Positions 3,590-23,234 of a DNA stretch of 64,000 nucleotides are shown in pieces. This stretch comes from Verrucomicrobia bacterium S94. Lineage in GTDB: Bacteria; Verrucomicrobiota; Kiritimatiellia; Kiritimatiellales; Pontiellaceae. Every line of letters begins with the position of its first letter. Position 1 is the first letter of the stretch. Location: assembly GCA_004299845.1 (NCBI GenBank), contig CP036201.1:682001-746000 (forward strand), in the 5' to 3' direction. The notes under the pieces are model-generated. The model had not been told where the DNA came from. It worked only from the letters and a program-made list of their open reading frames with translations, and ran no database searches. A program made the translations under genes and the position numbers.

Positions 3590-4469
3590 TTGCTCGCGCA
3601 AGCTCTTCTATTTTTTCCGCAGCGGCGCCTTCGCAGATCCAGGCCAGGCCATAGGTTTTCTGCGGTTGGGCCGGACGGATGGAAAACTCCGCTTTGGAAT
3701 AGTCAAAGTAGACCGGGCCATCCGGAGACCGGAGATACCCTTTCACACGATAGACCGCATCTTCGTTTTCCAGAATCAAGGTTTTGAATGGTTCTGGATC
3801 AGTTGCCGAGGGTAGATCCAGAACGAACGCTGCATAACGCGGATCGCGGCATTTGGCATATTCTCCATGCAGTTCCGCGTGCGAACCTCCGGTTCCGAAA
3901 ATTGAAAAATCGGCTACGGCGCGTTCGCATCGGCACAGCTGGACCCCGGGGTTGATATTGAGCACCTCGGCTTCGGTTTTGATCAGCTGTTCTTCATCAA
4001 AAAGGTCGCATTTGTTGAGCAGTATCAGGTCGGCGGCCTCCACCTGATGAATAATATTCGGCAGTGTATGGATCAGCCGGAGAAAACTGCGCGGTTCCAC
4101 AATGCTGATGATGGAGCTTAGCTCAAAATATGCATCAAGACCGGTTTCTTTGAGCATATCGGCAATGACCCGGGGATCCGCCATGCCGCTGGCTTCAATA
4201 ACGACGCCTTCGGCATCGCTATGCTTTTTATAGATATTCGTCAGCTGTCCGATGAACTCGGTAACCAGACATTTGCAGAATATACTGCCTCCGGGAATAG
4301 AGACCACGTCGGGATTTTCGGCTGAAACAATAGCTCCGTCCACATCAAGAGCGGAGAATTCGTTGACCAGATAAACCCATGGGCGTTCTTTGTTCTGTTC
4401 GACAATCCGCTTAAGCAGGGTTGTTTTTCCGGTGCCGAGAAATCCGGTGATCAGGCAGATGGGAATCAT
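3582..4469 (-). CDS. CobW/HypB-type P-loop GTPase
   Basis: A 295-residue COG0523-type GTPase. Visible motifs are Walker A GFLGTGKTT near the N-terminus, the family metal-binding region as GGSIFCKCL (a CxC variant of the usual CxCC), EASGMADP and the base-recognition motif NKCD. Family members insert metals or help cobalamin enzymes. As the last gene of the minus-strand corrinoid cluster (75 nt after the UroD-family gene), this one could service zinc or cobalt in the methyltransferases; that is inference. I start at the ATG at 4469, which has GGAG 8 nt upstream. An in-frame ATG exists at 4514 but adds residues before the P-loop that the family lacks. Confidence 0.85.
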   Translation of the reverse strand: MIPICLITGFLGTGKTTLLKRIVEQNKERPWVYLVNEFSALDVDGAIVSAENPDVVSIPGGSIFCKCLVTEFIGQLTNIYKKHSDAEGVVIEASGMADPRVIADMLKETGLDAYFELSSIISIVEPRSFLRLIHTLPNIIHQVEAADLILLNKCDLFDEEQLIKTEAEVLNINPGVQLCRCERAVADFSIFGTGGSHAELHGEYAKCRDPRYAAFVLDLPSATDPEPFKTLILENEDAVYRVKGYLRSPDGPVYFDYSKAEFSIRPAQPQKTYGLAWICEGAAAEKIEELARAIS

Positions 4470-4543
4470 GGCATTAACTCCGTTGGAAAGATTCAGCATC
4501 GAACCCCGGAACAAACCGGTTCGCGGTCCGATGCCGGGCGGGG

Positions 4544-5905
4544 CTATTCAGCCGCTTCTTCAATGGCATTCACCAGTGTGGTGATGTCGGGAATAATCGA
4601 AGCAAATTTCGGTTCACCGTTAATGCAGATGGTCGGCAGGTTTTTAACACCCAGTTTGACCATCATACCAATGCCTTCGCGCACCTTGATTTTATGTTCG
4701 TTGATGCAGCACTTTACCGAGGTTTTTTCGGCGGCTTTATTGACGGCTTCCATCATGTACTGACACGGTGCACAGGAGGTGGAATCCAGTGTAATGACAT
4801 CAAGAATAACACCGTCGGTCGTCTGATAGTCGGGAAGTTGTATGTCGTCAAAGGAATCGGCTTCTTTGGCCTGCAGTGTCTTTGCGGTTTCGCGTGCATA
4901 TTCGTCGTGAACCATATCCGCAACCGCCTGGAGATTTTTAACCGGAACGGCGTAAGGCAGGTCGCACCCCGGAGCCAGGATGAATCCCTTGTTTCCGCTT
5001 TTTTCCATGATGTCCAGGACTTCCAGTTTTGCATCTTCTTCGTCTCCCAGCAGGAGGACGGAGGTCAGCTTAATGTTTCCGCCGAATGATTTCCCCTGGG
5101 CTTCACAGAGTTCACGCAGGTGGGCCATATCGATCTGTTCATCCACCGAAATGTTGTCGGCCGTGGTTTGGGTCATAACTTCAAGGTTGCGGGTCACATC
5201 GCCGCAGACAAAGATGGAGGATATGCCGCCGTGCTCACGGATGTGGTCGTACACCGCATTCATAGCCGGAGTTACGAACTGCTCAAAATGGTCCGGAGAA
5301 ATCTGACTGGTCATCGGATCCACCACCGCAATCACGTCGGCTCCGTGATTAAGATAGATGTCTGCTGATTTTTTGCAGACTTCCGCGCAGTAACTGATCA
5401 CCTTGATCACTTCATCCTCTTCGTCGTACATATCGAGGAAAATGTCATTGCCGAGCAGATGGAGGGCCAGAGTGAACGGGCCGCAGATCAGACCGTAGAG
5501 GGCCGTGTCGTCACCGATATCTTTTTTCAGGGTTTTCAGTGCTTCCACAACAATCGGGAAGCGGCCTTTGGTTTCATCGATTTCAGGCAGATCGGCAATG
5601 GTTTTACCCATAGCCAGCGGATGGCTGGTGACTGCCGGCGGAACCTCGTCGGCCCAGTGGAGGTCACAGCCGAGAATTTCCGCTTCAATCTGCAGATCGA
5701 ACATCACCGGAAGTCCGTCCGGCTTATAAAGCGATTTTGCTTTCTTGAGTCCTTCAACCAGCAGATCGGCCGAGGTGAGATATTCGGTTGCCGATTTGCC
5801 GATAAGGAAGCCGCCGTGGCAGCCGACAAACGGCAGCCATGCCGGACGGGGAGTTTCTTTGCCAGCAATTGCGTCTAATAGAATCTGTTTACCTGTCATC
5901 GCCAT
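4544..5905 (-). CDS. UroD-family corrinoid methyltransferase fused to thioredoxin-like domain
   Basis: A 453-residue protein. Residues 1-345 belong to the uroporphyrinogen decarboxylase/MtaA/CmuA superfamily. Its neighbours (corrinoid protein, RACE protein, pterin methyltransferase) point to a cobalamin methyltransferase rather than heme synthesis. Residues 370-453 form a small thioredoxin-like domain with CAPC at 378-381 and the cis-proline region LGVKNLPTICINGEP. UroD-type methyltransferases bind Zn through His/Cys ligands; candidates here are the GGFLIGK-region Cys/His, CGDVT and APGCDLP. The methyl donor is not identifiable. The fused CxxC domain could reduce the zinc or corrinoid site or a substrate disulfide, which is inference. 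It sits 100 nt downstream of the DUF1638 gene. Confidence 0.85.
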   Translation of the reverse strand: MAMTGKQILLDAIAGKETPRPAWLPFVGCHGGFLIGKSATEYLTSADLLVEGLKKAKSLYKPDGLPVMFDLQIEAEILGCDLHWADEVPPAVTSHPLAMGKTIADLPEIDETKGRFPIVVEALKTLKKDIGDDTALYGLICGPFTLALHLLGNDIFLDMYDEEDEVIKVISYCAEVCKKSADIYLNHGADVIAVVDPMTSQISPDHFEQFVTPAMNAVYDHIREHGGISSIFVCGDVTRNLEVMTQTTADNISVDEQIDMAHLRELCEAQGKSFGGNIKLTSVLLLGDEEDAKLEVLDIMEKSGNKGFILAPGCDLPYAVPVKNLQAVADMVHDEYARETAKTLQAKEADSFDDIQLPDYQTTDGVILDVITLDSTSCAPCQYMMEAVNKAAEKTSVKCCINEHKIKVREGIGMMVKLGVKNLPTICINGEPKFASIIPDITTLVNAIEEAAE

Positions 5906-6004: not shown

Positions 6005-6751
6005 TTAGGTGTCCGGGGCGGCGCGGACGATTGTCTCATTATGGGTTGCAACGATCCGGGAGCCTGGAGAAAGAACAAGAAAATCTTCGGAATCCCATTC
6101 GCCCAGCAGCATGCGTTGAAGGAGGTCAAGGTTTCCGGGCACTTTTTCAAAACGCCAGCCCTTGGAGGCCGCTTCTTCTCTGGCGGTTTGTTCAAAGCTG
6201 TCGTCGGGTTCCACTCCCATTTCAATAAATGTGATTTGGGAATAGTTTTTTTTAGTATCGCACAGCTCCTCCCAGAGAAACTGTGCATTGTCTTCTCCGT
6301 ATTTTTCGACCAGCTGGTCGTAGGTCAGGTCCATGCCGAGCTGGGTCGGGATTGCGATATCTTTCAGGTCGTCAGCAACATAGTCGCGTTCAATCCAGCC
6401 AGTGGTTTTGAAATAGGTGCCGGGGTTTTCATTAAAATATTTCTGATAGCGCTGCCGGCTTCCGAGAAACAGCGTGATGCAGTCATGCGCCCGCGGCAGT
6501 ACGACGGGAATCGTACGGGCTTTGAGGCCGTTGAGGCCGTTATTGCAGAGGCCGTACCCCATAATGACCGCGTCGTAATCCTCCTGCGATGCCTGGTCTA
6601 CAATGGTCTGAATCCGCTTTAGCATTTCCTCGGCGGGAATATCGTGCAGTCCTTTCTGCAGAAACTGCACATCAATATCGTGCGGGGTATTCTGCAGCAG
6701 GAATTCCATTTCCCGGAAAAAAATTTCGCAGCTGATCAGTTTAAACTTCAT
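6005..6751 (-). CDS. DUF1638 family protein
   Basis: A 248-residue protein with the DUF1638 pattern: an N-terminal LISCEIFFREM, DAVIMGYGLCNNGLNGLKA, PRAHDCITLFLGS and a later FIEMGVEP. Genes of this family are commonly found beside corrinoid methyltransferase genes, which fits this setting, but the reaction is unknown. The gene lies between the RACE-type activator (80 nt upstream) and the UroD-thioredoxin gene (100 nt downstream) on the same strand. The conserved Cys and His residues (SCE, LCNNG, RAHDC) suggest metal binding; that is inference. Confidence 0.85.
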   Translation of the reverse strand: MKFKLISCEIFFREMEFLLQNTPHDIDVQFLQKGLHDIPAEEMLKRIQTIVDQASQEDYDAVIMGYGLCNNGLNGLKARTIPVVLPRAHDCITLFLGSRQRYQKYFNENPGTYFKTTGWIERDYVADDLKDIAIPTQLGMDLTYDQLVEKYGEDNAQFLWEELCDTKKNYSQITFIEMGVEPDDSFEQTAREEAASKGWRFEKVPGNLDLLQRMLLGEWDSEDFLVLSPGSRIVATHNETIVRAAPDT

Positions 6752-6831: not shown

Positions 6832-8502
6832 TTATACCTGACTTTCGATAGTTGGAAAGTCATCGGTTTCCAGATTGGGAATGGCCAGAGCTTCCTGATA
6901 GTGGTTTACAAAATGGTCGGTTTTGTTGAGGGTAATGACAGTGGGACGATCGATGATGTCGAAGCATTCCGTTGTTACGTTCCTGTCCAAAACGGCAAGA
7001 GTTGCGCCGGCCAGAGAACCGTTTCCGATGATGTCATATTTTGATCTGTCAATATCCGGAAGCAGTCCGATACAGATCGCATTTTCCAGGTTGATATATT
7101 TGGCGAATCCCCCGGCCAGGATAATGCGGTCCACATCGTGTACGGTTTTGCCCAGTTCGACCAGCAGCGACTTGAGTCCGCCATAGATTGCTGCTTTGGC
7201 CTTCAGAATTTCAGCAATATCCCCTTCGGTTATCGTGATGGATTTCCCGGTGGCGGAAAACGGCGGAGAAACCAGGGTGCATGCATGCATCCCGGCTGTT
7301 TTTTCATAGCGATGCTGCTGCTTCAGCATTCCGATGTCAAAACGACCGACCCTATTGATAAGACCGCAGCGGAACCCTTCTGCAATAAAGTCAATGATTG
7401 CGGAGCCGCAGAGTCCTATGGGCTTCGTTTCGCCGATCACGGTGAGTTTAAAATCCAGCTTATCATCAAATTCAATGGTGTCGATGGCACGATTGGCAGC
7501 CCGGGCGCCATGCAGCAGCCCGGCGCCTTCAAATGCCGGACCCGCCGCCGTGGCACAGGCGGTCATTTTGCCGTTCATATAAGCCACCATTTCACCATTG
7601 GTTCCGATGTCGATCAGCAGGGTCAGATCATCGCTTTCCCCGTTTTCGGAGGGGGTCATCATGGTGCGGTGGCGGAAAATATACAGGTCGGATGTAATGT
7701 CGCCGCCGACATATCCTGAAATCGCCGGAATGTCCTCCACCAATGCTTCAGGATGCATATCGATGTCCAGTGCTCCGGCGGTGCTTCTGAAAAAACGGCT
7801 TACAGGTTCGAAAGGAAGTACGCCGATGCTTTCCGGGGATACTCCGAAGAAAATATGCATCATTACCGTATTTCCCGAAAGTACGAGATGATGCAGATCG
7901 GATGTTTCCGTGCCGGTTCTGTCACAGAGCCGGTGGATCAGAGGATTCAGGGTATGTTCAATCACCAGATGCTGGAGTTTTTCCAGTTCGCCGGGTTTTG
8001 AGCAGAGCGAAATACGCGAAACCACATCATCGGCCTTGAGAATCTGCTGGTTGTACTGCGATTCGAGGGCTGCTGTTTTTCCGGATTCGAGATCGATCAG
8101 AGCGGCGGAGACGGTTGTTGTGCCGACATCAACGGCCAGTCCGAACCCCTGCTTAAACCGGGGCGCGAGGGGGTGGGGCGGCAATTCCATGTCATCCGCA
8201 ATACGGGCGCCATCGAATGAAATCACAGCCGTGTCGGGCAGAAAAATTTCGGCATCAGAATCCAGCACATAGGTCATGCACGAAAGGGCTTCACGGCACT
8301 GACCGGCAGTGACGGTGATTTCTGCGTCGAAGATGCGGTAGCGGCCTTCGCCCAGCAGTACTGAGCAACTGGAGCAGGAGCCCTGTCCGCCGCATCTGGC
8401 TTCAATCGACCAGCCCGCCTGGCGGGCGAGCTCCATGACCGTTGCTTCCGGCTGATTTTTAACCTCTACTGTGCGGCCTTCAAAGGTGATGCGTACTGCC
8501 AT
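6832..8502 (-). CDS. 2Fe-2S/ASKHA reductive activator of corrinoid proteins (RACE type)
   Basis: A 556-residue protein with an N-terminal plant-type 2Fe-2S ferredoxin domain (ligands C37, C43, C46 and C75) and an ASKHA ATPase core from about residue 120. The core shows GLAVDVGTTTVSAAL, LLIDIGTNGEMV, AAGPAFEGAG and ILAGGFAKYI. This is the DUF4445/RamA-like family, which uses ATP to return inactive Co(II)-corrinoid to Co(I). Its natural partner is the corrinoid protein encoded directly upstream (8591-9217), although a strong hairpin terminator separates the two. This suggests that the RACE gene is expressed by read-through or its own promoter and is needed in smaller amounts. Confidence 0.92.
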   Translation of the reverse strand: MAVRITFEGRTVEVKNQPEATVMELARQAGWSIEARCGGQGSCSSCSVLLGEGRYRIFDAEITVTAGQCREALSCMTYVLDSDAEIFLPDTAVISFDGARIADDMELPPHPLAPRFKQGFGLAVDVGTTTVSAALIDLESGKTAALESQYNQQILKADDVVSRISLCSKPGELEKLQHLVIEHTLNPLIHRLCDRTGTETSDLHHLVLSGNTVMMHIFFGVSPESIGVLPFEPVSRFFRSTAGALDIDMHPEALVEDIPAISGYVGGDITSDLYIFRHRTMMTPSENGESDDLTLLIDIGTNGEMVAYMNGKMTACATAAGPAFEGAGLLHGARAANRAIDTIEFDDKLDFKLTVIGETKPIGLCGSAIIDFIAEGFRCGLINRVGRFDIGMLKQQHRYEKTAGMHACTLVSPPFSATGKSITITEGDIAEILKAKAAIYGGLKSLLVELGKTVHDVDRIILAGGFAKYINLENAICIGLLPDIDRSKYDIIGNGSLAGATLAVLDRNVTTECFDIIDRPTVITLNKTDHFVNHYQEALAIPNLETDDFPTIESQV

Positions 8503-8590: not shown

Positions 8591-9217
8591 TTAGGCGGCA
8601 ATGCCGAGGACTTCCTTGGCGGTCAGCACGCAGGTGTTGGCATCATCGGAATAGCCATCGGCACCGATTTCATCGGCATAATCCTGAGTCACCGGAGCGC
8701 CGCCGATCAGAATTTTGGCTCCGCAGCCTTCAAGACCGGCAACCACTTCCTTCATATAAGGCATGGTGGTGGTAAGCAGAGCGCTGAGCAGGACCAGCTG
8801 GGCACCGTTATCGACGGCTTCTTTGTATTTATCAACATCGCAGTCAACCCCGAGATCCATTACTTCGAAACCTGCACCCTTGAGCATCATGGCGCAGAGG
8901 TTTTTACCGATGTCGTGGAGATCACCCTTAACGGTTCCGATTGCAACTTTTCCGATCGGCTCATGGCCGGCGGCCTCCAGCAGCGGTTCGAGCAGATCGA
9001 GTCCGGCCTGCATGGCCCGGGCGGCAATCAGCATTTCCGGAACATAGGCTTCATTCCGGGAAAAACGATCTCCGATCTCCGCCATGGCCGGAACCATGGA
9101 TTCCATCAGGATCTCTTCCACATCGGTTTTACGTTCAATTTCAGTCTGAACAAGTGCAGCGACATCTTTCCGTTTTCCCTTCAGCACCGCCTCAAAAAGT
9201 TCTTCATTCCTAGCCAT
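8591..9217 (-). CDS. Methyltransferase corrinoid protein (MtbC/MtmC/MtaC type)
   Basis: A 208-residue cobalamin-binding protein. Residues 1-85 form the helical cap domain (RFSRNEAYVPEML) and residues 88-208 the Rossmann-like B12 domain. The lower-ligand motif DxHxxG is at D99-H101-G104 (KGDLHDIGKN), with GGAPVTQDYADEIGADGYSDDA near the end. It shuttles the methyl group between a substrate-specific methyltransferase and a methyl-THF-forming one. It has its own leader (9218-9328) and its own terminator, so it is a monocistronic and probably abundant transcript. Confidence 0.93.
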   Translation of the reverse strand: MARNEELFEAVLKGKRKDVAALVQTEIERKTDVEEILMESMVPAMAEIGDRFSRNEAYVPEMLIAARAMQAGLDLLEPLLEAAGHEPIGKVAIGTVKGDLHDIGKNLCAMMLKGAGFEVMDLGVDCDVDKYKEAVDNGAQLVLLSALLTTTMPYMKEVVAGLEGCGAKILIGGAPVTQDYADEIGADGYSDDANTCVLTAKEVLGIAA

Positions 9218-9418: not shown

Positions 9419-11182
9419 CTAAAACAATCCTGTCACTTTTCCGGTATCCGTATCTACATCAATCTTCCGGAAACCCGGATTGCTTCCGGTGCCGGGCATC
9501 AGTTTGATATCGCCGGCGACCGGGACTATGAAACCGGCTCCTTTATAGGTCAGCACATCACGGATGGGTAAACGCCAGCCGGTTGGAGCTCCTTTAAGGT
9601 CAGGGTCGTGCGACAAACTTAAATGGGTTTTCACCATGCAGATGGCCATTCCGACGCTTTCCGGATCGTTCTGCATGGTTTCGATTTTCCGGTTCGCGGT
9701 TTCGGACCAGTCCACACCGTCGGCACCGTAGAGTTCGGTGGCGATTTTATGCACGCGGTTTTTCAGCGGCATGTCCAGATCATAGAGGAATTCAAACCGG
9801 TTTTCCTCTTCACAGGCTTCCACCACCGCCGCAGCCAGTTCAACCGCACCTTCGCCGCCATGTTCCCAGTGTTTGGAAACCGCACAGCGGGCTCCGGCTT
9901 CCTCGGCGATACGTCGTACCAGATTATGCTCCGCTTCGGTGTCCGTGTAAAATCCGTTGATGCAGACCACGGGACTTGCACCGCTTTTTTTAACGATGTT
10001 GATATGGGCCTTGAGATTTTCACAGCCTTGTTCAAGCAGGGTAAGTTCTTCGTGGGTGTACGCCGGATCAAGCGGTTGTCCGGGTTTCACCTGTGGTCCG
10101 CCGCCATGCATTTTGAGAGCGCGGACCGTGGCCACAATCACAACGGCATCCGGCTTCAGGCCGGAGCAGCGGCATTTCAGATTCCAGAATTTTTCGAACC
10201 CGATATCAGCTGCAAAACCGCTTTCCGTAACGAGGTATTCCCCCATTCGGATTCCAAGCATGTCAGCAATCACTGAATTCTGGCCGATGGCAATATTGGC
10301 AAAAGGTCCGGCATGAACGAGGACCGGATTGCCTTCAATGGTCTGGATCAGATTCGGGTTCAGTGCCTCCAGCATAATGGCGCACATGGCACCATCCACT
10401 TCGAGATCGGCCGTTGTGATCTCTTTTCCGGACCGGCTGTAGGCCACCACCATTCTGGAAATGCGTTCGCGCATATCCTTCAGACTGTTGGAAACAGCCA
10501 GAATGGCCATCAGTTCGCTGGAGACGGAAATAGCAAAACCGGACTCCATTTCAAGGCCGTCCATTTTTCCGCCTTTACCGATGGTGATATTGCGAAGCGA
10601 CTGGGCACAGAAATCCATCACCCATTTGAGCTGCACGCGCTCGGGATCGATGTCGAGCCGTTCGATGCCGATCTGCGCGAGGCGTTCGTCGTCGTAATTG
10701 TTTTCATGCTGCATACGGGCGGTAAGCGCCACCATACAGAGATTGTGAGCGTTGGTGATGGCGTCGATATCGCCGGTAAGTCCGAGGGTGAACGGGGCGA
10801 GCGGAATGCATTGTGCCAGCCCGCCTCCGGCGGCGGAACCTTTGATATTGAAGGTGGGGCCTCCGCTGGGCTGCCGTATGGCACCGACCGGTTTTTTCCC
10901 GATTCTTCCAAGACCTTCCACCAGGCCCATGGTTGTAGTGGTTTTCCCTTCGCCAAGCGGGGTGGGGGTGATCGCGGTGACGTCGACATATTTTCCGGGT
11001 TTGGTATGTCTGACGCGGTTCCACGTTTTGTTGTAGTCGATTTTGGCGACATTGCGTCCCATCGGAATCAGTTCGCCGTCCTGCAGGCCGAGTTTTTCAG
11101 CAATCTCCTGGATCGGTTTCATTTGTTTTTCGGCGGCTTCGGCAATCTGCCAGTCGGCCATCTGTGTCGGGTCGAGTTTCAT
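9419..11182 (-). CDS. fhs: Formate--tetrahydrofolate ligase
   Basis: A 587-residue formyl-THF synthetase with the ATP loop [49 protein letters not shown] and the C-terminal [16 protein letters not shown]. It interconverts formate + ATP + THF and formyl-THF. With MetF, FolD and a formate channel next to it, it can run in the ATP-forming direction during methyl-group oxidation. The start is ATG 11182, preceded by a clear AGGAG 6 nt away; the upstream in-frame ATG (11206) lacks such a site. It follows focA by 35 nt. Confidence 0.97.
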
Positions 11183-11217
11183 TATCTTCTCCTCTAAACG
11201 TTCCAAAGATTGGAAAA

Positions 11218-12054
11218 TCAGTCTTCCTGTTTGCGCAGATAAAGAATCCAGTAGATTGTACCTACAAAAACGGCGCCGCCGACCATATTGCCCACTGTTA
11301 CCGGCAGCAGATTGTTCAGCAGAAAGCGTTGCATGGTTAGGTTCGAAAGGTCAGTGCCGTGCAGTTGTACCGCAATATCAGGATTGGATTTCAGGAGCAG
11401 ACCGGCAGGAATCAGATACATGTTTGCAATGCTGTGCTCAAATCCCATCGCCACAAAGGCGGTAATCGGAAAAATGATGGCGAGGATTTTATCGGTTACG
11501 GAACGGGAGCTGTAGCAGAGCCAGATGGCGAGGCAGACCAGAATATTGCAGAGCATGCCGCTGACAAACGCGGCGGTCATTGTATGACTGACTTTATAAT
11601 TCGCAATCGCCACCGCCTTGGCGCCGATCACTCCGCCGTTATCCGTCCAGTGTCCACTGAGGTGAAAAAGCAGCAGCATGGCCAGAGAGCCCGCCAGATT
11701 TCCCAGGAATACAAAGACCCACCCTTTGAGCATTCGTGAAATTTTCACTTTTTTCGACAGGCAGCCCATCACCACCAGCGTGTCACCCGTAAACAGGTCA
11801 GCGCCGGCCACAATCACCAGAATCAGCCCCAGTGAAAAGGCCAGGCCGCCGATCAGTTTGGTGAGCCCGAATCCCATGGTTGATCCGGTGATGACCGTGG
11901 TGTAAAACGCGCCGCCCAGTGCGATGAAGGAGCCGGCCTGCACGGCCAGAAAAAAAGCGCTGATAATATCGCGGTTGGCTTTGCGCAGGGCGGAAGCCTC
12001 GGCCCGTCTGGCCATTGCCGCAGGAATATATGCATCGTATCGTTCGTCATTCAT
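11218..12054 (-). CDS. FocA/FNT-family formate channel
   Basis: A 278-residue formate/nitrite transporter family member with six or so hydrophobic segments, including [42 protein letters not shown] and [16 protein letters not shown] (the family's N-x-L-V-C-x-A-x-W signature). [13 protein letters not shown] supplies the central pore histidine region. It is embedded between the MetF-methyltransferase fusion (26 nt upstream) and fhs (35 nt downstream), which strongly suggests formate as its substrate and export, or uptake, coupled to Fhs. Confidence 0.92.
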
Positions 12055-12080: not shown

Positions 12081-14504
12081 TTAAGTCCGCAGACTGTCAC
12101 AGAATTCGCCCATCAGTTCAATCGCATCGTTTGTTTTCTCCAAAGAGCCGTCCATGGCCGCATAGGCGGATACCAGCTTGACCAGTTTCGGATCGGCGGG
12201 TCTGGTGCCGAAGCGGTGTCGGGCATTTACAATTCCGGCATCCAGACCGTAACGCATGGCCACTTCGACATAGGCGCGCATGATGCCGATTTTCCGGCCC
12301 GGAAGATCGCGGCAGCTGTTGCTGATTCCCATGGAAAAATGAACCCCTTTCATTTCCGGAAGCGCTTTGAGGGCTTTGATGGTTTCGAACGCGCGGTAGG
12401 TGTAGCCCGGAGTGCCGGGCATCATCGGCATGTCGATAGCCAGCGGAAAAGCGGTGGTATCAAAAATAACGGCATCATTTTCGAAGCCGTATTCCATGGC
12501 TTTGGTATGAATCTGTCTGGCCAGAGCCACGAGATCTTCCACTGTGTCGTTTCCGGCACCGGAACCCTTTTCGTTCGTCAGCATACCGATAAAGACGAAA
12601 TCATACTCTTTCCTGAGCGACATCAGCTTGTCCGCCGTATGGACTTTGATGGAATTGACCAGTGGTTTTTTTACGGGACAGTCTGTGCGATACCATTCCT
12701 TCAGGCCGGCAATTAAGACCTGATCGTCTGAGCTGTCGATACAGACCGGAACCGTGCCGCCCCAGCGACGCACAAGCCGGACATATTCCTTCATAATCCG
12801 GACGGCCAACTGCGGGTCGGATTCACCGAAGGCGTCGACATTGACCGCAATATAGTCCGCTCCGTCAGCCGCCTGACTTTCGATCAGAGCCCGGATATAT
12901 TCCAGTTGCGGACTGTCCGCGGAATAAGCCGTTTCGCCCAGGCGGTGCAGATCCCGCATAACCGCGCCGTGTTTGGGAATGGAGGCATGGATGTCTTCGC
13001 CGATGGTGATGATTGCATTTTTCATGGTGTGGTCCTTTCCGAACAGGTAGTTGAGAATTGATGAGGTGTGCTGCAGTGCCGGATTACGCGGGCGGTTGAT
13101 GGTCTGCCGAAGTCTGGTCAGGCCGCCGCTCCGGGCTTTGGCCGCTTTATAAATCTGTTCACCCCGGCAGATCACTCCTTCGGCATTTCCGCAGGTCCCG
13201 TCGGGTTTGGCATCGCCGCACGGGGCATTGGCCAGTCCCTTGGCACATCCGCCCATGGTGCAGTAGCCGAAATTTTCAACCAGATAGCAGTCACCGCATG
13301 CTGTGCATTCGAATAGGGAGTGCTTGATTGCGCGCTCCACGGCGAACAGGGACTTACGGGCGGTCCCGTTTTCTTTACTGCCGTCCATGATTTTTTTCAG
13401 GGTCCGGAATCCTTTGCATTCGGGATCAAGCAGATGGTTGTGCGCTCGGTCGAACCAGCGGTCGTGGCGGGTTGGTTTGTTCGGGCTGAGTGCTATGCGA
13501 CGGTCCTGGTCGTCATAGAGATAAAAGGGATTTTCCGGCGGCCAGCACAGATTTTCGCAGTCCTCGCTCCACGTATCGCCGATTTCAGCGGCCCGGTTGA
13601 GCAAACGGCAGAAAAGCTCATATTCGTGTACGCCGCCGATATCAACGCCGTCGTAACCGAGCGAGCGATACATGGCAATCTGTCGGGCGCAGCGTTCAAC
13701 CTGTTCTTCGAACCGTTCGGTCTTGAGTCTGGCCAGAAGGGCGTCGCTGACAAAACAGCCCGGCAGTCGGCCGGCATTCATCAGGTGCGGTGCAGAGTTG
13801 GTTGTCGTGAGAAAATAGGCGTTTCCCAGAATGGGAAGGGTTAGTCCGGTCTCTTTTCTATAGAGCATCAGTTCCCGGGCTTTTCTCCAATCCCAGCCAA
13901 CCTGCGTTATAAAAAAGCGCGCCCCCGAAGCGGCTTTCTTTTCCATCTTAAAATACTGCTGCATCTGGGAGGCTTCGGTGTATTTATAGGGCGATACGGC
14001 CGCTCCCGGAAAGAGCAGGTTCAGCCCGGCGAGCCGGCCCGGTGTGGCGGAGAGCAGCAGGGCCCGGTTGTTTTCAGAAATAAGCTGCAGCAGGCCGACG
14101 GCCTCCCGGTCAAATACACCCTTGGCCGAAGTCGGTTTGTCTCCGGTAAGAGCCAGCACACTCTGCACGCCGCGTTGCCGGTAGCCGGTCAGCAGAGAGT
14201 TCAACGCCGCCTGGTTATGATCTTTGCAACTGATATGCGGAATAAAATCCGGATGATTCGGCAGATCGGTAGTTGAGAGCAGCGTCAGAATATCAGAGGG
14301 GTCGAGGTTGGAAACGCCGCCTGGATTCTGGGGGAGGGTAATGGCGGCAAAATCAAAATCAGGCGGAATACTCCGATTTCCGGAAGCGGCATAGTCGCTC
14401 AGGAATCTACGGATAGGTTCGACTGTGTATCCGCGTCCCGGCATCAGTTCGGCCAGTACCGTGAAGGTATCCGAATCGTTTAGTCTTTCTTTTAACGGTC
14501 TCAT
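12081..14504 (-). CDS. MetF / MTHFR C-terminal domain / pterin-binding methyltransferase fusion
   Basis: An 807-residue protein with three parts. Residues 1-300 are a methylene-THF reductase barrel (TVLAELMPGRGYTVEP, LALTGDKPTSAKGVFD). Residues about 400-465 are the Cys-rich MTHFR C-terminal domain seen in acetogen MetV (CTACGDC, GGCAKGLANAPCGD, GTCGN). Residues 494-807 are a dihydropteroate-synthase-fold methyltransferase of the AcsE/MtrH type (ADYIAVNVDAFGES, VPVCIDSS, KPLVNSIKV). It would pass methyl groups between the corrinoid protein and THF and oxidise methyl-THF. The start at 14504 has AAAGGA 5 nt upstream. Met494 (ATG at 13025) also has AAAGGA 7 nt upstream, so the third part may also be made separately. 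Confidence 0.88.
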   Translation of the reverse strand: MRPLKERLNDSDTFTVLAELMPGRGYTVEPIRRFLSDYAASGNRSIPPDFDFAAITLPQNPGGVSNLDPSDILTLLSTTDLPNHPDFIPHISCKDHNQAALNSLLTGYRQRGVQSVLALTGDKPTSAKGVFDREAVGLLQLISENNRALLLSATPGRLAGLNLLFPGAAVSPYKYTEASQMQQYFKMEKKAASGARFFITQVGWDWRKARELMLYRKETGLTLPILGNAYFLTTTNSAPHLMNAGRLPGCFVSDALLARLKTERFEEQVERCARQIAMYRSLGYDGVDIGGVHEYELFCRLLNRAAEIGDTWSEDCENLCWPPENPFYLYDDQDRRIALSPNKPTRHDRWFDRAHNHLLDPECKGFRTLKKIMDGSKENGTARKSLFAVERAIKHSLFECTACGDCYLVENFGYCTMGGCAKGLANAPCGDAKPDGTCGNAEGVICRGEQIYKAAKARSGGLTRLRQTINRPRNPALQHTSSILNYLFGKDHTMKNAIITIGEDIHASIPKHGAVMRDLHRLGETAYSADSPQLEYIRALIESQAADGADYIAVNVDAFGESDPQLAVRIMKEYVRLVRRWGGTVPVCIDSSDDQVLIAGLKEWYRTDCPVKKPLVNSIKVHTADKLMSLRKEYDFVFIGMLTNEKGSGAGNDTVEDLVALARQIHTKAMEYGFENDAVIFDTTAFPLAIDMPMMPGTPGYTYRAFETIKALKALPEMKGVHFSMGISNSCRDLPGRKIGIMRAYVEVAMRYGLDAGIVNARHRFGTRPADPKLVKLVSAYAAMDGSLEKTNDAIELMGEFCDSLRT
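13020..13040 (-). promoter_or_regulatory. Internal ribosome-binding site and start inside the MetF fusion
   Basis: AAAGGA, 7 nt, then ATG at 13025-13023, in frame exactly at the boundary between the linker after the MTHFR C-terminal domain and the AcsE/MtrH-like domain. It could yield a free 314-residue methyltransferase. Confidence 0.5.
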
Positions 14505-14577
14505 GAAAATCCTTTGTCCGAACGTTAAAGAGGTTTCCATAAAACGGATGCGTATGAATAGAAAGATAGTTGATTGA

Positions 14578-14670: not shown

Positions 14671-15573
14671 TCAGCCTTCCAGCGGGGAGCGCAGAAAATG
14701 GGCGTGGTAATGCTGTTTCTGGCGCTGAGCGGCGGTTACTGTGTTTTTCATGAGAATGGACAGGGTTACCGGACCGACGCCGCCGGGGACCGGTGTAATC
14801 CATCCGGCGGTTTCCTGACACGAGGCGTAATCGCAGTCGCCAACCACTTTGGATTTTCCGTTTTCATCTTCAATCACATTAATGCCGATATCGATGACCA
14901 CGGCTCCGGGTTTGATCATATCGCCGGTCAGCAGGCCGGCTTTGCCGACGGCCACGAAGACAACGTCCGCCCGGCGGGAATGGACTGCAACTTCGCGGGT
15001 CATGTGATGGCATACCGTGACCGTTGCACCTTCGGCCATCAGCAGAAAGGCAATCGGTTTGCCGACGATTTCGGAGTGACCGATCACGCAGGCTTCCAGA
15101 CCTTCGAGTTTCATTCCCGTGCTTTTCAGAATTTCAACCGAAGCCTTGGCGGTACATGGAGCCAGCTCCAGTTCGCCGTAAACAATATTTCCGATGGATT
15201 TCGGATGCATGCCTTCCACGTCTTTGAGCGGATGGATCGTTTCCTGCAGTGCTTTAATGGGCAGGTGTTCGGGGACCGGGCGCTGGAGAATAATGCCGGT
15301 GACGGTCGGATCGACATTCAGGTTGGTGATCGCGGCGGTCAGTTCGTCGACGGAAATATTGCGGGGATAGTGGCGTTCTTCGAATGCAATGCCCACTTTG
15401 TCGGCATTGCGCTTCTGGTTGCGTACGTAAAGATCTACGGCGTTGTCATCGCCCACTTTAATGGATACCAGTTTGGGGTTCCAGTTCTGCTGTTTAAGGG
15501 TAACAACATCCAGAGCAATTTGTTCGAGTAGTTTATCCGCCACCTCGCGGCCGGCAATATCATTGTGATTCAT
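14671..15573 (-). CDS. folD: Bifunctional methylene-THF dehydrogenase / methenyl-THF cyclohydrolase
   Basis: A 300-residue FolD. It shows the catalytic Tyr-Lys region as DNAVDLYVRNQKRNADKVGI, the signature GIILQRPVPEHL, the dinucleotide site VIGHSEIVGKPIAFLLM and the C-terminal TPVPGGVGPVT. It links methylene-THF to formyl-THF between MetF and Fhs. The start at 15573 has GGAGG 6 nt upstream; a longer frame (to 15645) has no such support. It is monocistronic, ends at a strong terminator and is divergent from the PocR/AraC regulator. Confidence 0.97.
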   Translation of the reverse strand: MNHNDIAGREVADKLLEQIALDVVTLKQQNWNPKLVSIKVGDDNAVDLYVRNQKRNADKVGIAFEERHYPRNISVDELTAAITNLNVDPTVTGIILQRPVPEHLPIKALQETIHPLKDVEGMHPKSIGNIVYGELELAPCTAKASVEILKSTGMKLEGLEACVIGHSEIVGKPIAFLLMAEGATVTVCHHMTREVAVHSRRADVVFVAVGKAGLLTGDMIKPGAVVIDIGINVIEDENGKSKVVGDCDYASCQETAGWITPVPGGVGPVTLSILMKNTVTAAQRQKQHYHAHFLRSPLEG

Positions 15574-15636
15574 CAGGTTCCTCCGTTGCTTTTTAAATAG
15601 GTTACCCCGAACCGGTCTTCGAGACAAAAAAGCGGA

Positions 15637-15655
15637 TTTGTTCAATATTAAACTG
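15637..15655. promoter_or_regulatory. Candidate operator in the folD/PocR-AraC divergent promoter
   Basis: Contains GTTCAATATT, the core shared with the sites at 9310 and 14578. It lies about 65-80 nt before folD and about 75-90 nt before the regulator, so it could serve either gene. Confidence 0.35.
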
Positions 15656-15728: not shown

Positions 15729-16940
15729 ATGTCGATCTTGTCAAAGAGGATGTTTAATTCGGTGGCGAAAGATTATCGGCGGCATAGCGGACTCCAATTG
15801 TGCCTGTCTGATTGCGATGGCCGGATTGTGATGCCGGACGAAACCAGTCCGGTGGAAAATCTGCCGTCGATGTGTCATCTGCGTTTGCATAATCTCAACG
15901 AAGCAGTGCGCTGGGGTGAATCACACGTTTTTTTTGTTGCACCGGGTATCATGAGCTGGCTGGTTCCGCTGGTTGACGGAGTCGAGGTGAAGGGCGGGCT
16001 TTGCGGCGGCTGTATTCTGCTGGAGGACGATCCGCTAAGTATCAATACTGCGGTCAACTATTTTGTGGGCGAAGGGGCTCGACGTAAGGATGCGGAGATT
16101 TTTGTCCGGGGACTGGAGGTTTTCGATCAGGAGCGTGTGCCGCAGGTGATGCATGCCCTGCAGGAGTCGTTTTACCAATACAGCGGGTGGAAACCGCTGA
16201 AGCTGATCCGGAATCGTGATCAGATGATCCAGCAGCGGCAGATTGCCGAAGAGATTCATCAGCGCAAGGTCGACCAGAACCGGGCCTACCCTTACGACGA
16301 CGAGCGTATTCTGCTTTCTCTCATTCGTGTGGGCGATCGCGCCGGTGCACGGAAAATGTTTAATAAAATGCTCGCGGCCATGTTTCTTTATTCTCCGAAA
16401 CCGGTCGTTGTTCGAGCGCGCGCCATTGAAATGATGGGCTATCTGGTCCGCACGGCGGTGGAGGACAGCCCGCTTGCGGAGCCGTTACTGGAACGGCACA
16501 TGAAATGGATTGAGGAAATTGTGGATACGCAGGATTTTGATGATCTCTGCAATGTACTGCGCGAAGCGCTCGATGATTTTATGAACAGTATTTTTCTGCA
16601 GGGCGTGAGTCCCGTAAGTCCGGCGGTTGGTAAAGCCCTGGACTATATAGCCGCCAATTATACCGAACCGATTTCGCTGGAGGATATCGCCGCCGCCGCC
16701 GGGCTCAGCACCTTCCGGATTGCTCATCTGCTCAAAGAGGCTACCGGTAAAACCGCGTTGCAGAATATTCATTATCTGCGTGTGCAGGAAGCGCGGCGTC
16801 TGCTTGAAGAAACCGACCTGAGCTGCACGGATATCGCCTACGAAACGGGATTCGGAGATCAGTCCTATTTCATTAAACAGTTTAAAAAATGGATGGGAAT
16901 AACACCGGCGAAATACCGGAAATCCAGCCGCGTTCGGTGA
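15729..16940 (+). CDS. PocR-domain AraC-family transcriptional regulator (C1 island)
   Basis: A 403-residue regulator. Residues about 5-150 resemble the PocR ligand-binding domain, with Cys pairs (CLSDCDG, GGLCGGCIL) and APGIMSWLVPLVDG. The middle is helical. Residues 300-400 hold the double helix-turn-helix of AraC proteins (ISLEDIAAAAGLSTFRIAHLLKEATG, SCTDIAYETGFGDQSYFIKQFKKWMG). It is divergent from folD, and candidate operators recur in front of several C1 genes, so it probably senses a C1 substrate or methylated compound. The ligand is unknown. Confidence 0.88.
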   Translation: MSILSKRMFNSVAKDYRRHSGLQLCLSDCDGRIVMPDETSPVENLPSMCHLRLHNLNEAVRWGESHVFFVAPGIMSWLVPLVDGVEVKGGLCGGCILLEDDPLSINTAVNYFVGEGARRKDAEIFVRGLEVFDQERVPQVMHALQESFYQYSGWKPLKLIRNRDQMIQQRQIAEEIHQRKVDQNRAYPYDDERILLSLIRVGDRAGARKMFNKMLAAMFLYSPKPVVVRARAIEMMGYLVRTAVEDSPLAEPLLERHMKWIEEIVDTQDFDDLCNVLREALDDFMNSIFLQGVSPVSPAVGKALDYIAANYTEPISLEDIAAAAGLSTFRIAHLLKEATGKTALQNIHYLRVQEARRLLEETDLSCTDIAYETGFGDQSYFIKQFKKWMGITPAKYRKSSRVR

Positions 16941-20095: not shown

Positions 20096-21340
20096 ATGTT
20101 GCTAACATGGATTCAGGAAAAGTTGATTGCTTACGGTACACCCGCAGAGTCGGCCGATGAATTTGCATTGGCGGTTTCCGCCGTACTGATTTTTGCCGCA
20201 GCCTACGGCGTGTACTGGATTCTCAAAAATTATCTGCTCAAGGTGATCCACCGGGTCACGGAGAAGACCTCCAACAAATGGGACGACAAACTGATGGAGT
20301 CGCGCGTGTTCCACCGCCTGCTGCGTCTGATTCCGCTTACGCTTGTTGTTATCGGTCTGGAACGGGTTGCACCGGAAAGTTTTGTGCTGGTTAAGCGCGT
20401 AGTGTTTGCAGTCATTATTTTCATCGGGGCCCGCACGGTTGAGGCGTTTCTGAATGCCGTTTCAGATGTCTATCATTCCTGTATGGACGAATATCGAAAA
20501 CCCATACGTCCGCTGTTCCAGGCGCTGCAGCTGGTGACCTATTTTCTGGCCGTCATTTTCATGATTTCAGTACTGCTCAATAAGGAACCATGGGGACTCT
20601 TTACTTTGTTGGGCGGTATGACCGCCGTCACCATGCTCGTTTTCAAGGATTCCATTCTCGGTTTTGTGGCCGGCATCCAGCTTGGTGCAAACGATATGGT
20701 GCGCGAGGGCGACTGGATTGAAATGCCCAAATACGGGGCCGACGGCGATGTGATTGAAGTGTCAGTGAATACGGTAAAAGTCCGCAACTGGGACAAGACC
20801 ATTACCACCATTCCAACGTATGCGCTCATTTCCGATTCGTTCAAAAACTGGCGGGGTATGAGCGAATCCGGCGGTCGACGGATCAAGCGTTCCATCTTTA
20901 TTGATATGAATACCGTCCGGTTTGCCGATGAAGCCATGCTTGAAAAATTCAAGGCCATGGAACTGCTTAAAGAGTATATTACGAAAACGCAGGAAGAGAT
21001 TAATACGGCGAATGCAGAGCGTAATATTGATCTTTCTGCAACGGTGGTTAATGGGCGGCGCCAGACCAACCTCGGGATCTTCCGCGCCTACCTGGTGAAC
21101 TATCTGCACAGTAATCCGAAGATCCACAAGGGCATGACTTTTCTGGTGCGCCATCTTCAGCCGACGCCGCAGGGGCTGCCGATTGAAATCTATGTGTTCA
21201 GTGCTGACAAAAACTGGGTGGCCTATGAAGGTATTCAGGCGGATATTTTTGATCACATACTCGCCGCCATTCCGGAATTCGGTCTGCGTGTTTTCCAGCA
21301 GCCTTCCGGTAATGACATCGCCGCCCTGAAAATCGGGTAG
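20096..21340 (+). CDS. MscS-family mechanosensitive channel (YbdG-like)
   Basis: A 414-residue protein with several N-terminal membrane helices, then the pore-lining helix and beta domain of MscS: GLFTLLGGMTAVTMLVFKDS, GFVAGIQLGANDMVREGDWIEMPKYGADGDVIEVS and TVKVRNWDKTITTIPTYALIS. The long C-terminal cytoplasmic part resembles E. coli YbdG. It would release solutes during hypo-osmotic shock. ATG 20096 has AAAGGA 9 nt upstream; a TTG at 20078 is in frame but unsupported. The stop lies just before the REP repeats. Confidence 0.92.
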   Translation: MLLTWIQEKLIAYGTPAESADEFALAVSAVLIFAAAYGVYWILKNYLLKVIHRVTEKTSNKWDDKLMESRVFHRLLRLIPLTLVVIGLERVAPESFVLVKRVVFAVIIFIGARTVEAFLNAVSDVYHSCMDEYRKPIRPLFQALQLVTYFLAVIFMISVLLNKEPWGLFTLLGGMTAVTMLVFKDSILGFVAGIQLGANDMVREGDWIEMPKYGADGDVIEVSVNTVKVRNWDKTITTIPTYALISDSFKNWRGMSESGGRRIKRSIFIDMNTVRFADEAMLEKFKAMELLKEYITKTQEEINTANAERNIDLSATVVNGRRQTNLGIFRAYLVNYLHSNPKIHKGMTFLVRHLQPTPQGLPIEIYVFSADKNWVAYEGIQADIFDHILAAIPEFGLRVFQQPSGNDIAALKIG

Positions 21341-21386
21341 GCCGCGCGGTTTGGGCATAGCGCGACCGCGTGCCGCATAGTCCTGG

Positions 21387-21409
21387 TAGAGCGCGACCGC
21401 CGGGCGCGC
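21387..21409 (+). repeat. REP half-site
   Basis: A single arm of the REP element (GCGCGACCGCCGGGCGCGC) directly upstream of the full copy at 21421, with a further decayed version at about 21358-21375. Confidence 0.7.
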
Positions 21410-21420
21410 GTAGTTTTGGT

Positions 21421-21581
21421 AGGGCGCGACCGCCGGGCGCGCTTATGCACGCAGGGCAGGTATCTTGGGTGCCCAGGCCCGCCCGGCGGTCGGTCCCTAC
21501 CTCGCGGGGAACGGTCTTACTCAAACCTTGTTTTATAATGCACTGTTTGGTTGTCCCGTTTCACGTTCAGATCCCGAAAAA
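21421..21581 (+). repeat. Long REP/BIME copy A with truncated RAYT 5' end
   Basis: Two inverted arms (GACCGCCGGGCG near 21429 and CGCCCGGCGGTC near 21482) enclose a spacer of about 40 nt. Homology to copy B (21639-21799) continues past the arms into GTTCAGATCCCG, which corresponds to the first codons of the RAYT gene. Copy A therefore looks like a duplication that includes a stub of the transposase gene. Confidence 0.85.
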
Positions 21582-21638
21582 ATTGCAAGGGGTAGAGCGC
21601 ACGGTTGGGATAGGCGAGCGTCTAGCGTGCGGTTTGGG

Positions 21639-21799
21639 TAGGGCGCGACCGCCGGGCGCGCTTATGTACGCAGAGCAGGTATCTTGGGTGCCCAGGCCCG
21701 CCCGGCGGTCGGTCCCTACCTCGCGGGGAATGGTCCTACTCAAACCTTGTTTTATAATACACCGTTTGGTTATTTCATATCATGTTCAGATCCCGCAAA
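21639..21799 (+). repeat. Long REP/BIME copy B, immediately upstream of RAYT
   Basis: Nearly identical to copy A over 160 nt. Its inverted arms end about 60 nt before the RAYT start, and the similarity runs into the gene's first codons. Confidence 0.85.
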
Positions 21800-22234
21800 A
21801 AGCTGCCCCACGAGATCCCGGCATGGGTAAAGGATGGTTCAGCATTTTTCATTACGATCTGCACGGAACCGAAAGGGAAGAATCAGCTCTGCAATGCGGA
21901 GGTCTTTGACCTGCTGTGTTCGTCATTAAAGTTCAGAATGGACCGTGGTGAATTATGGGTTTATCTGCTGGTGCTTATGCCCGATCATCTGCATACCATC
22001 ATGAGCTTTTCCTGCCAGACCGGCATGCAGAAACCGTTAGCCAATTGGAAGCGTTATACCTGCATAAAAAGGGGCATAAAATGGCAACGTGATTTTTTTG
22101 ACCATCGGTTACGTAACGATGAATCGTACATGGAGAAGGCCAGCTATATCCGCATGAATCCCGTCCGGGCAGGATTATGTGAAAAGCCCGAAGACTGGCC
22201 CTATATCTGGGAAAACCGGAATTACAAAGGGTAG
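21782..22234 (+). CDS. REP-associated tyrosine transposase (RAYT)
   Basis: A 150-residue single-domain Y1/HUH transposase related to IS200/IS605 TnpA. The metal-binding motif is H69-L-H71 (LMPDHLHTI). The likely catalytic Tyr is Y122, in the RAYT signature KASYIRMNPVRAGL, followed by EDWPYI. It is flanked on both sides by REP palindromes, the standard arrangement for these domesticated enzymes, which bind and cleave REP hairpins as single strands. All key residues are present, so it may be active. It has no accessory tnpB. Confidence 0.92.
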   Translation: MFRSRKKLPHEIPAWVKDGSAFFITICTEPKGKNQLCNAEVFDLLCSSLKFRMDRGELWVYLLVLMPDHLHTIMSFSCQTGMQKPLANWKRYTCIKRGIKWQRDFFDHRLRNDESYMEKASYIRMNPVRAGLCEKPEDWPYIWENRNYKG

Positions 22235-22249
22235 GGCGTGTGGTTTAGG

Positions 22250-22270
22250 TAGGGCGCGACCGCCGGGCGT
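22250..22270 (+). repeat. REP half-site downstream of RAYT
   Basis: A single arm, GGGCGCGACCGCCGGGCG, between the RAYT stop and full copy C. Confidence 0.7.
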
Positions 22271-22282
22271 GTGTGGTTTAGG

Positions 22283-22378
22283 TAGGGCGCGACCGCCGGG
22301 CGCGCTTATGCACGAAAAGCAGGTATCTCGGGTGCCCAGGCCCGCCCGGCGGTCGGTCCCTGCCTCGCGGGGAACGGG
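22283..22378 (+). repeat. REP/BIME copy C
   Basis: Same inverted arms and spacer as copies A and B over about 95 nt, without the RAYT 5' extension. With copies A and B it brackets the transposase. Confidence 0.85.
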
Positions 22379-22400
22379 GCTGCCTTATCGGAATCGGGGA

Positions 22401-23234
22401 CTATCTTTTTTTCATCATCAGCAGGGTAAAGCTGACGGTTACGGTCAGGGATTCCAGTTGCATGACGGCGGTTTTTGCGGCATCGGATGAACGCCAGAAA
22501 ATGGGGGTCATCTGAATACAGTCGGCGATCTGTTCGCAGTTGAGTATGGCTTCCGAACGCACTTCGATCCGGTCCGTTTCTTCAAAAAGAGGGGCGCATT
22601 TTTCCGCTGCGGCATTGGCCTTTTCTTTGAAATCGCCCGATGAAAACTGCAGTTGCCGGCGCAGTTCAATCAGATGATTGGGGCCGGGAACACCGATTAT
22701 CAGTATACCGTTGGAGCTGAGGATGCGATGGAATTCCCGGTTATTTCGCGGGGCCAGAATGCTGAGAATCATGTCCATTGAATCCGTCGCAAGCGGAATG
22801 TCACGCATGCCGTTGGCCACAAGCCACGCCGCATTTTTCCAGCGCCGGGAAGCAACCTGTATCGCTTTTTTTGAAATATCGATGCCGCAGAAAAACCCGC
22901 TGTGTTTTTCACTCAGCGTTCCGAGCAGGTGTCCCTCGCCGCAACCGCAGTCCAGGACGGCAATGTCTTTTTTTTCGGGCATGGGTTGTTCAGTAACCGT
23001 CCGGATCAGGGCGTCAAACGCACCGGAATCGAAAAAACGACGGCGGGCCATCACCATTTCCGGATCATCTCCAGGCTGTTTCGCTTTTCGCTGATGGCTG
23101 AGCAGCAGGTTGACGTATCCTTCGCGGGCGATGTTGAACGGGTGACCGTTTCTGCAGGCGATCATGCTGCCTTGCGGCATCAGTGGTTCACTGCAGACGG
23201 GGCAGCAGACGGGGGATGGGGTCGGAAGTTTCAT
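22401..23234 (-). CDS. 23S rRNA guanine-N1 methyltransferase, RlmA family
   Basis: A 277-residue SAM-dependent methyltransferase with the RlmA N-terminal zinc finger (C11, C14, C27, H31) followed by GHPFNIAREGYVNLLL and the SAM site VLDCGCGEGHLLG. ILAPRNNREFHRIL and IGVPGPNHLIELR are also typical. RlmA enzymes methylate G745 or G748 of 23S rRNA. The ATG overlaps the stop of the upstream rapA-like gene by 4 nt (ATGA), so translation is coupled. Confidence 0.88.
   Translation of the reverse strand: MKLPTPSPVCCPVCSEPLMPQGSMIACRNGHPFNIAREGYVNLLLSHQRKAKQPGDDPEMVMARRRFFDSGAFDALIRTVTEQPMPEKKDIAVLDCGCGEGHLLGTLSEKHSGFFCGIDISKKAIQVASRRWKNAAWLVANGMRDIPLATDSMDMILSILAPRNNREFHRILSSNGILIIGVPGPNHLIELRRQLQFSSGDFKEKANAAAEKCAPLFEETDRIEVRSEAILNCEQIADCIQMTPIFWRSSDAAKTAVMQLESLTVTVSFTLLMMKKR

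Follow-up and report, generated by a model that had tools for sequence, protein, structure and literature searches.

The MetVF-type (type II) reductase of acetogens combines a methylene-tetrahydrofolate (THF) reductase (MTHFR) domain with a Cys-rich MetV-type domain, MetF and MetV being separate subunits. MetV was reported with two [4Fe-4S] clusters, and neither NADH nor NADPH was used by type II MetVF enzymes in vitro (PMC8760232). In cmu strains, which act on chloromethane, a methyl group passes to a corrinoid and from the corrinoid to THF (CmuB), after which MetF2, working oxidatively, and FolD lead to formate (PMC3621897). Type I mlp clusters comprise an MtaA-like methyltransferase, a corrinoid protein, and a Ram-type activase; by definition, a THF methyltransferase is absent from the 20 kb around them (PMC10418091). 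Two further points of comparison are AcsE, the corrinoid methyltransferase (MeTr) of the Wood–Ljungdahl pathway (2e7f, 1f6y, and 2yci), and the folate domain of MetH (3k13, 5von, and 4ccz), itself one module of a multi-domain chain.

The locus described here lies in the window, i.e., the whole 64,000-nucleotide stretch of the Verrucomicrobia bacterium S94 genome that was analyzed. In it, a methyl-transfer domain is joined as the third part to MetF- and MetV-type domains in a single polypeptide, and, unlike the acetogen MetVF type, this fusion has no RnfC2, Hdr, or other electron partner encoded alongside; no NAD(P)H-binding or electron-partner gene was found beside it in the window. The MeTr domain shares with AcsE the TIM barrel and the pterin-site residues, including the equivalent of N199, but it is only ~22–26% identical to AcsE by fold alignment, scores below the curated AcsE cut-offs, and belongs to a genome without acetyl-CoA synthase (ACS). 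Compared with MetH, the fusion lacks the homocysteine, cobalamin, and reactivation domains and is joined to an MTHFR instead. The surrounding operon would have a step order in common with the cmuA/cmuB/metF2/folD/purU genes. In the latter, however, separate proteins serve as MetF and as the THF methyltransferase, a formyl-H4F hydrolase (PurU) takes the place of the ATP-forming ligase in releasing formate, and CmuA carries its own corrinoid domain, unlike the window's operon with its separate MtgC-like protein. The type I mlp clusters share the set of MtaA-like methyltransferase, corrinoid protein, and activase, but the window's THF methyltransferase lies inside the operon and is fused to MTHFR. 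The parts are known already; the single chain is undescribed as far as our literature search goes, which found no published account of a MetF–MetV–MeTr fusion in the open-licence literature, a weak negative.

The fusion gene was correctly placed at 12081–14504 by the sequence-only reading, which left the strand unstated. The frame lies on the minus strand, where it is open from 14540 to 12081; a plus-strand frame over 12081–14504 was ruled out by stops that interrupt that strand. The first ATG in the ORF listing is at 14540 (819 codons), and the ATG at 14504 (807 codons) corresponds to residue M13 of that longer frame. Since M13 is nearly invariant in the alignment of relatives, whose frames mostly begin at its equivalent, the true start is probably ATG 14504, as first proposed. 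Only three Pfam domains were found on the chain, each above its cut-off: PF02219 (MTHFR; residues 99–288, 51.9 bits against 24), PF12225 (residues 397–470, 47 bits against 23), and PF00809 (Pterin_bind; residues 549–742, 50.3 bits against 25.5), which bears out the proposed triple fusion. Between the second and third lies a conserved linker (residues 485–506; 13023–13088, minus strand), in which R485, L489, S494, N497, F500, D503, and H504 are invariant in all 15 aligned fusions. A stop codon near 13026–13040 was looked for and none was found. Relatives read through the same junction (nine other fusions in the family and 79 of 80 scanned loci), which excludes a chance frame or an assembly error.

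The residues expected of each activity are retained. In the MTHFR (MetF-like) TIM-barrel domain (residues 14–320; 13581–14501, minus strand), assigned by Pfam and fold match, E31, D134, and Q213 are what we take to be the equivalents of E. coli MTHFR E28, D120, and Q183. Across 80 aligned fusions, E31 is invariant in the 75 rows that have a letter there (5 gaps), D134 in 79 of 79 (1 gap), and Q213 in all 80 without gaps. The eight cysteines of the PF12225/MetV-type domain (residues 397–470; 13131–13352, minus strand), at positions 412, 415, 418, 427, 432, 441, 450, and 458, are invariant in the same 80 fusions, and their number would fit two 4Fe-4S clusters. In the pterin-binding MeTr domain (residues 507–818; 12087–13022, minus strand), identified by Pfam and fold match, D602, N629, and D694 presumably correspond to D75, N96, and D160 of AcsE, an equivalence made by alignment; N741 aligns with AcsE N199, for which an N199A mutant structure exists (2ogy).

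An AF2 model built from 49 aligned fusions (pLDDT 87.3, pTM 0.87) gave a fold match of predicted residues 14–320 to 1v93 (Z 24.1). Predicted residues 507–818 best matched the MetH folate domain 3k13 (Z 28.8, 270 residues aligned), followed by the O-demethylase methyltransferase 4o1f (Z 27.6) and AcsE 2e7f (Z 27.1), and the C-terminal helices of the modeled MeTr domain, like those of the MetH folate domain, reach beyond the end of AcsE. The cut-offs of the curated AcsE NCBIfam models are far above the fusion's scores (NF040758, 56.3 against 370; NF005719, 83.8 against 259). Given these scores and a fold about equally near the MetH folate domain and the O-demethylase methyltransferase, "AcsE" is too narrow a label: of the original designation "AcsE/MtrH-like methyltransferase," the fold and residues of a pterin-binding corrinoid methyltransferase stood, while the AcsE label did not.

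The fusion belongs to a minus-strand series of genes with gaps of 11–201 bp, assigned by Pfam/NCBIfam unless stated otherwise. Upstream of it lies FolD, a methylene-THF dehydrogenase/cyclohydrolase (14671–15645), and 26 bp downstream a FocA-type formate channel (11218–12054). These are followed by formate–tetrahydrofolate ligase (FHS; 9419–11206; NCBIfam NF010032, 1,045 bits against a cut-off of 938), an MtgC-like corrinoid protein that is the likely methyl-group partner (8591–9217), a RACo-type reductive activator of corrinoid proteins (6832–8502), a DUF1638 protein (6005–6751; Pfam) that adjoins RACo in relatives too, a URO-D (MtaA/CmuA-like) methyltransferase that carries a thioredoxin-like domain at its C-terminus (4544–5905), and a CobW-family GTPase, a putative metallochaperone (3582–4514). 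The operon thus encodes both a cognate corrinoid protein and its reductive activase. A divergent PocR-AraC regulator (15729–16940, plus strand; Pfam) stands beside it. The joining of URO-D to a thioredoxin-like domain with a CxxC motif was also seen in G001, G002, G017, and G024. Elsewhere in the window, a REP-associated tyrosine transposase (21782–22234) sits amid repeated stretches in the translated frames (21198–22490).

We read 10 same-genus regions by greedy ORF picking, in which unmatched frames of <100 aa were ignored and antisense frames may replace unknown genes. The regulator was near in all 10, and FHS followed the fusion in 8. MtgC came next in 7 of the regions, 6 had RACo and DUF1638 as well, and 2 had URO-D-Trx and CobW, although some contigs end early. 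G001 has the MtgC–RACo–DUF1638–URO-D-Trx–CobW genes without the folate genes. In G002, a deletion has left only some 80 bp of the 3' end of the fusion gene (L207:13050–14350) with the rest of the operon intact, and the FolD, FocA, FHS, and MtgC of that operon are 92–95% identical. Because the corrinoid genes occur without the folate genes in the one and the operon without the fusion in the other, the operon falls into two modules, one for loading the corrinoid and one for oxidizing the folate, which the fusion bridges.

In the window's genome, two proteins bear an MTHFR domain. One is the fusion; the other, of 609 aa, begins with a part that resembles homocysteine methyltransferases and appears to be a PRK08645-like homocysteine methyltransferase/MTHFR, judging by its likeness to a G440 protein so named by NCBIfam. 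The pterin-binding proteins are a 286-aa DHPS-type and a 1,239-aa MetH-type protein, both named from length and score, and the fusion. A MetE-type protein is present, and no MeTr-type enzyme besides the fusion and MetH was found in this genome. ACS (PF03598) was absent from it (G000) and from 11 other same-genus genomes (12 of 12 tested). Acetogenesis or acetyl-CoA synthesis was therefore rejected for this genome, and the acetogen setting in which the chain had first been placed did not hold, the operon ending in formate enzymes. Methionine supply was likewise rejected as the fusion's task here, since MetH, MetE, and, in all likelihood, the PRK08645-like protein would cover methionine without it.

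The fusion is no local oddity. Full-length copies were found in 10 of the 29 genomes of the family, the window's own and nine others; in Pontiella sulfatireligans F21 (L166), a break at residue 351/352 divides the fusion between two frames that overlap, and in G026 a fragment is all that is left next to FocA and FHS. Among 387 genomes of the phylum, long three-domain matches also occurred in G363, G139, G040, G143, G237, and G296, and many others had only a two-domain MetF–MetV protein of ~520–580 aa, directly adjoined in some loci (e.g., L065, L080, L084, and L085) by a separate MeTr gene. A scan of 84,980 species, queried with the alignment of 15 fusions, gave 111 relatives, of which 80 were kept (some of their genomes are also in the family set); it was keyed on two short motifs, implying no absence outside the matched species. 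All three domains stood in one frame at 79 of these 80 loci, mostly from Planctomycetota (Phycisphaerae and Sedimentisphaerales) and Kiritimatiellales. The fusion is thus an old protein family, widespread in Kiritimatiellota and Planctomycetota. For genome searches, 50 Planctomycetota genomes were picked from the 69 loci first listed, mostly leaving out short contigs. A thiamine-phosphate-synthase-like gene lies directly upstream of the fusion in L113, L133, L146, and other Phycisphaerae, and also beside a stand-alone MeTr in L224; this ~350-aa gene had been suspected to encode a methyltransferase, which was rejected, as in L133 it is a thiamine-phosphate synthase with ThiD2 (Pfam TMP-TENI and ThiD2).

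In a MetF–MetV tree, all 28 fusions fell on one side of a 100/100 branch and 23 two-domain proteins on the other, which fits a single old fusion event; the trees took in 23 of the 80 clade A fusions, and long branches were flagged. In the MeTr tree, the stand-alone MeTr of G442, G451, and G452 clustered with clade A fusions (95/98), at a distance from the remaining separate MeTr and AcsE genes; these three therefore probably split off later.

We propose that the protein is a bifunctional enzyme that moves methyl groups between a corrinoid protein and methylene-THF and, in the window's operon, most likely works oxidatively, turning methyl groups into formate with a gain of ATP; we put the probability of this reading at about 0.62. 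The computed support comprises the domains, the conserved catalytic residues, the operon, the lack of ACS and of any MeTr besides MetH, the conservation, and the complementation pattern described below. The N-terminal MetF–MetV unit would interconvert methylene-THF and methyl-THF, electrons probably passing via flavin and iron–sulfur centers. The C-terminal MeTr domain would exchange the methyl group of methyl-THF with a corrinoid protein encoded separately, presumably the MtgC-like product in this operon. In the operon, the URO-D-type methyltransferase may load a substrate-derived methyl group onto MtgC, which RACo would keep active. The fusion would carry the group from methyl-MtgC to THF through its MeTr domain and then convert methyl-THF to methylene-THF through its MetF–MetV part; FolD would yield formyl-THF, FHS formate and ATP, and FocA would export the formate. 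The oxidative direction is most likely on the logic of the operon; flavin and cluster content, partner, substrate, electron acceptor, and any channelling are likewise inferred. A menaquinone-pathway gene at the window start makes a quinone electron sink at most conceivable. Two radical-SAM proteins of the futalosine menaquinone pathway, MqnE and MqnC, look fused in one frame in G002 (L207:342–2684, 781 aa, two matched stretches), and window positions 1–1641 (plus strand) hold the last part of a similar frame. Several observations sit uneasily with the proposal: G002 keeps the operon without the fusion, G026 has FocA and FHS beside a mere fragment of it, URO-D and CobW come after it in no more than 2 of the 10 regions from relatives, and one genome with a degraded MeTr (see below) yielded no other intact copy. 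Nor would a catabolic role be general, because many Planctomycetota fusions stand without MtgC, RACo, or URO-D neighbors.

Whether the MeTr domain transfers methyl groups at all bears on any such scheme, since it might be a folate-binding or structural appendage of what is simply an MTHFR, an explanation that we regard as highly improbable. It would be favored by the loss of N629 and N741 in 7 of the 80 fusions (L150, L154, L158, L162, L163, L164, and L165), with D694 changed to E in 4 of these, while the MTHFR residues stay, so that the fold can evidently persist without the MeTr catalytic residues. All four MeTr residues are nevertheless retained in 71 of the 80 aligned fusions (L153 and L155, on truncated contigs that end before N741, were set aside from the degraded count) and in all 5 clade B fusions, and no MeTr besides MetH was found in the window's genome. 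Moreover, for 6 of the 7 degraded fusions, the genome encodes a further MeTr that is intact. In the ACS-bearing genomes of L164 and L165, it is of the AcsE type, and its gene adjoins a CdhD/AcsD-type gene and lies upstream of the fusion at a distance of two genes. In the genomes of L162 and L163, it is a stand-alone protein of the fusion's own MeTr family, encoded elsewhere. L150 and L154 are second copies, the other fusion of the same genome being intact. For the seventh, L158, a search of the genome (G456) found no other intact MeTr. A stand-alone MeTr was present in 4 of 5 genomes with only degraded fusions, compared to 3 of 28 searched genomes with only intact ones (G434, G442, and G460; p = 0.004, uncorrected for kinship, with most of these genomes being incomplete MAGs and with G425 and G457, which have one intact and one degraded fusion each, counted only in the 6 of 7). 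Because intact copies accompany 6 of the 7 decayed domains and the MTHFR residues never vary, MeTr activity appears to be needed yet replaceable by another protein, with the MTHFR part kept.

If the domain is active, the direction of flow and the partner come into question. Within the family, a free-standing MtgC-like gene (E ≤ 1e-100) was found in 10 of the 11 genomes that carry the fusion but in only 3 of the 18 that lack it (Fisher p = 2.6e-4, uncorrected for kinship), with a weaker match (44%) in G012. Across phyla, 32 of 34 fusion genomes had a single MtgC-like match of at least 49% identity, one stop occurring in each of two of these rows; of the other two, G413 has the protein in two pieces and G449 has none. 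A 564-aa gene after MtgC in G434 was considered as an activase and rejected, as it carries sigma-70-type regions. This co-occurrence is also consistent with the suggestion, possible but on the unlikely side, that most Planctomycetota make methionine with a synthase of three proteins, in which the fusion provides the folate end beside the MtgC-like and PRK08645-like proteins, and that the window's operon puts this enzyme to catabolic use. Neither MetH nor MetE (Pfam) was found in 20 of the 35 fusion genomes tested for both, a PRK08645-like homocysteine methyltransferase is present in three of the genomes without them (one named as such by NCBIfam), and the MeTr fold follows the MetH folate domain over 270 residues; the three proteins together could cover all MetH functions except reactivation. 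Many of these genomes, however, are incomplete MAGs and may be auxotrophs, ACS-bearing genomes may rely on methionine synthases of another kind, an MTHFR domain is already part of the PRK08645-like protein, and the window's genome, with its MetH and MetE, falls outside the scheme.

The main rival to the oxidative reading is the reductive direction, in which FocA imports formate, FHS activates it, and it is reduced to methyl-THF, from which MeTr loads the corrinoid for biosynthetic or methylating use. Every step is reversible in principle; at L164, the fusion and FHS adjoin molybdopterin-oxidoreductase (FDH-type) and NuoF-type genes and the CdhD/AcsE pair, where a reductive Wood–Ljungdahl pathway is likely; and G363, G407, G425 (a finished Planctomycetota chromosome), and G446 have ACS, no separate AcsE-type gene having been found in these four. 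In such ACS-bearing relatives, the reductive direction is likelier. The ACS frames of G407 and G363 are 1,167–1,170 aa long (L213:6914–10423 and L215:7188–10688) compared to ~730 aa elsewhere, possibly ACS fused to another subunit. For the window's genome, by contrast, we consider a reductive flow unlikely, with ACS absent, MetH and MetE already serving methionine, no product-forming methyl acceptor evident, and a cost of one ATP per formate. A wider and rather tentative idea would make the fusion the shared folate-to-corrinoid gateway of a large PVC branch: it would make methyl-THF and hand the methyl group to the MtgC-like protein, feeding the three-protein methionine synthase in Planctomycetota without MetH/MetE, or ACS, and would run in reverse, from methyl to formate with ATP, in Kiritimatiellales, methyl-THF being passed between the active sites of one chain. 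The claim with which this work began, that methyl-THF formation and methyl transfer to or from corrinoid reside on one chain, is plausible from the catalytic residues kept in each domain, from G425, and from the window's own genome.

In a large and mostly uncultured bacterial group, the fusion thus unites two consecutive C1 steps in a single chain, among them the MTHFR step, whose energetics are debated. It offers a tractable single protein in which to ask whether methyl-THF passes between active sites and how a MetV-type reductase exchanges electrons, and the degraded-MeTr variants with their stand-alone copies are ready-made natural controls. Its distribution suggests unrecognized routes in these bacteria, from methyl groups to formate with a gain of ATP and to methionine without MetH or MetE.
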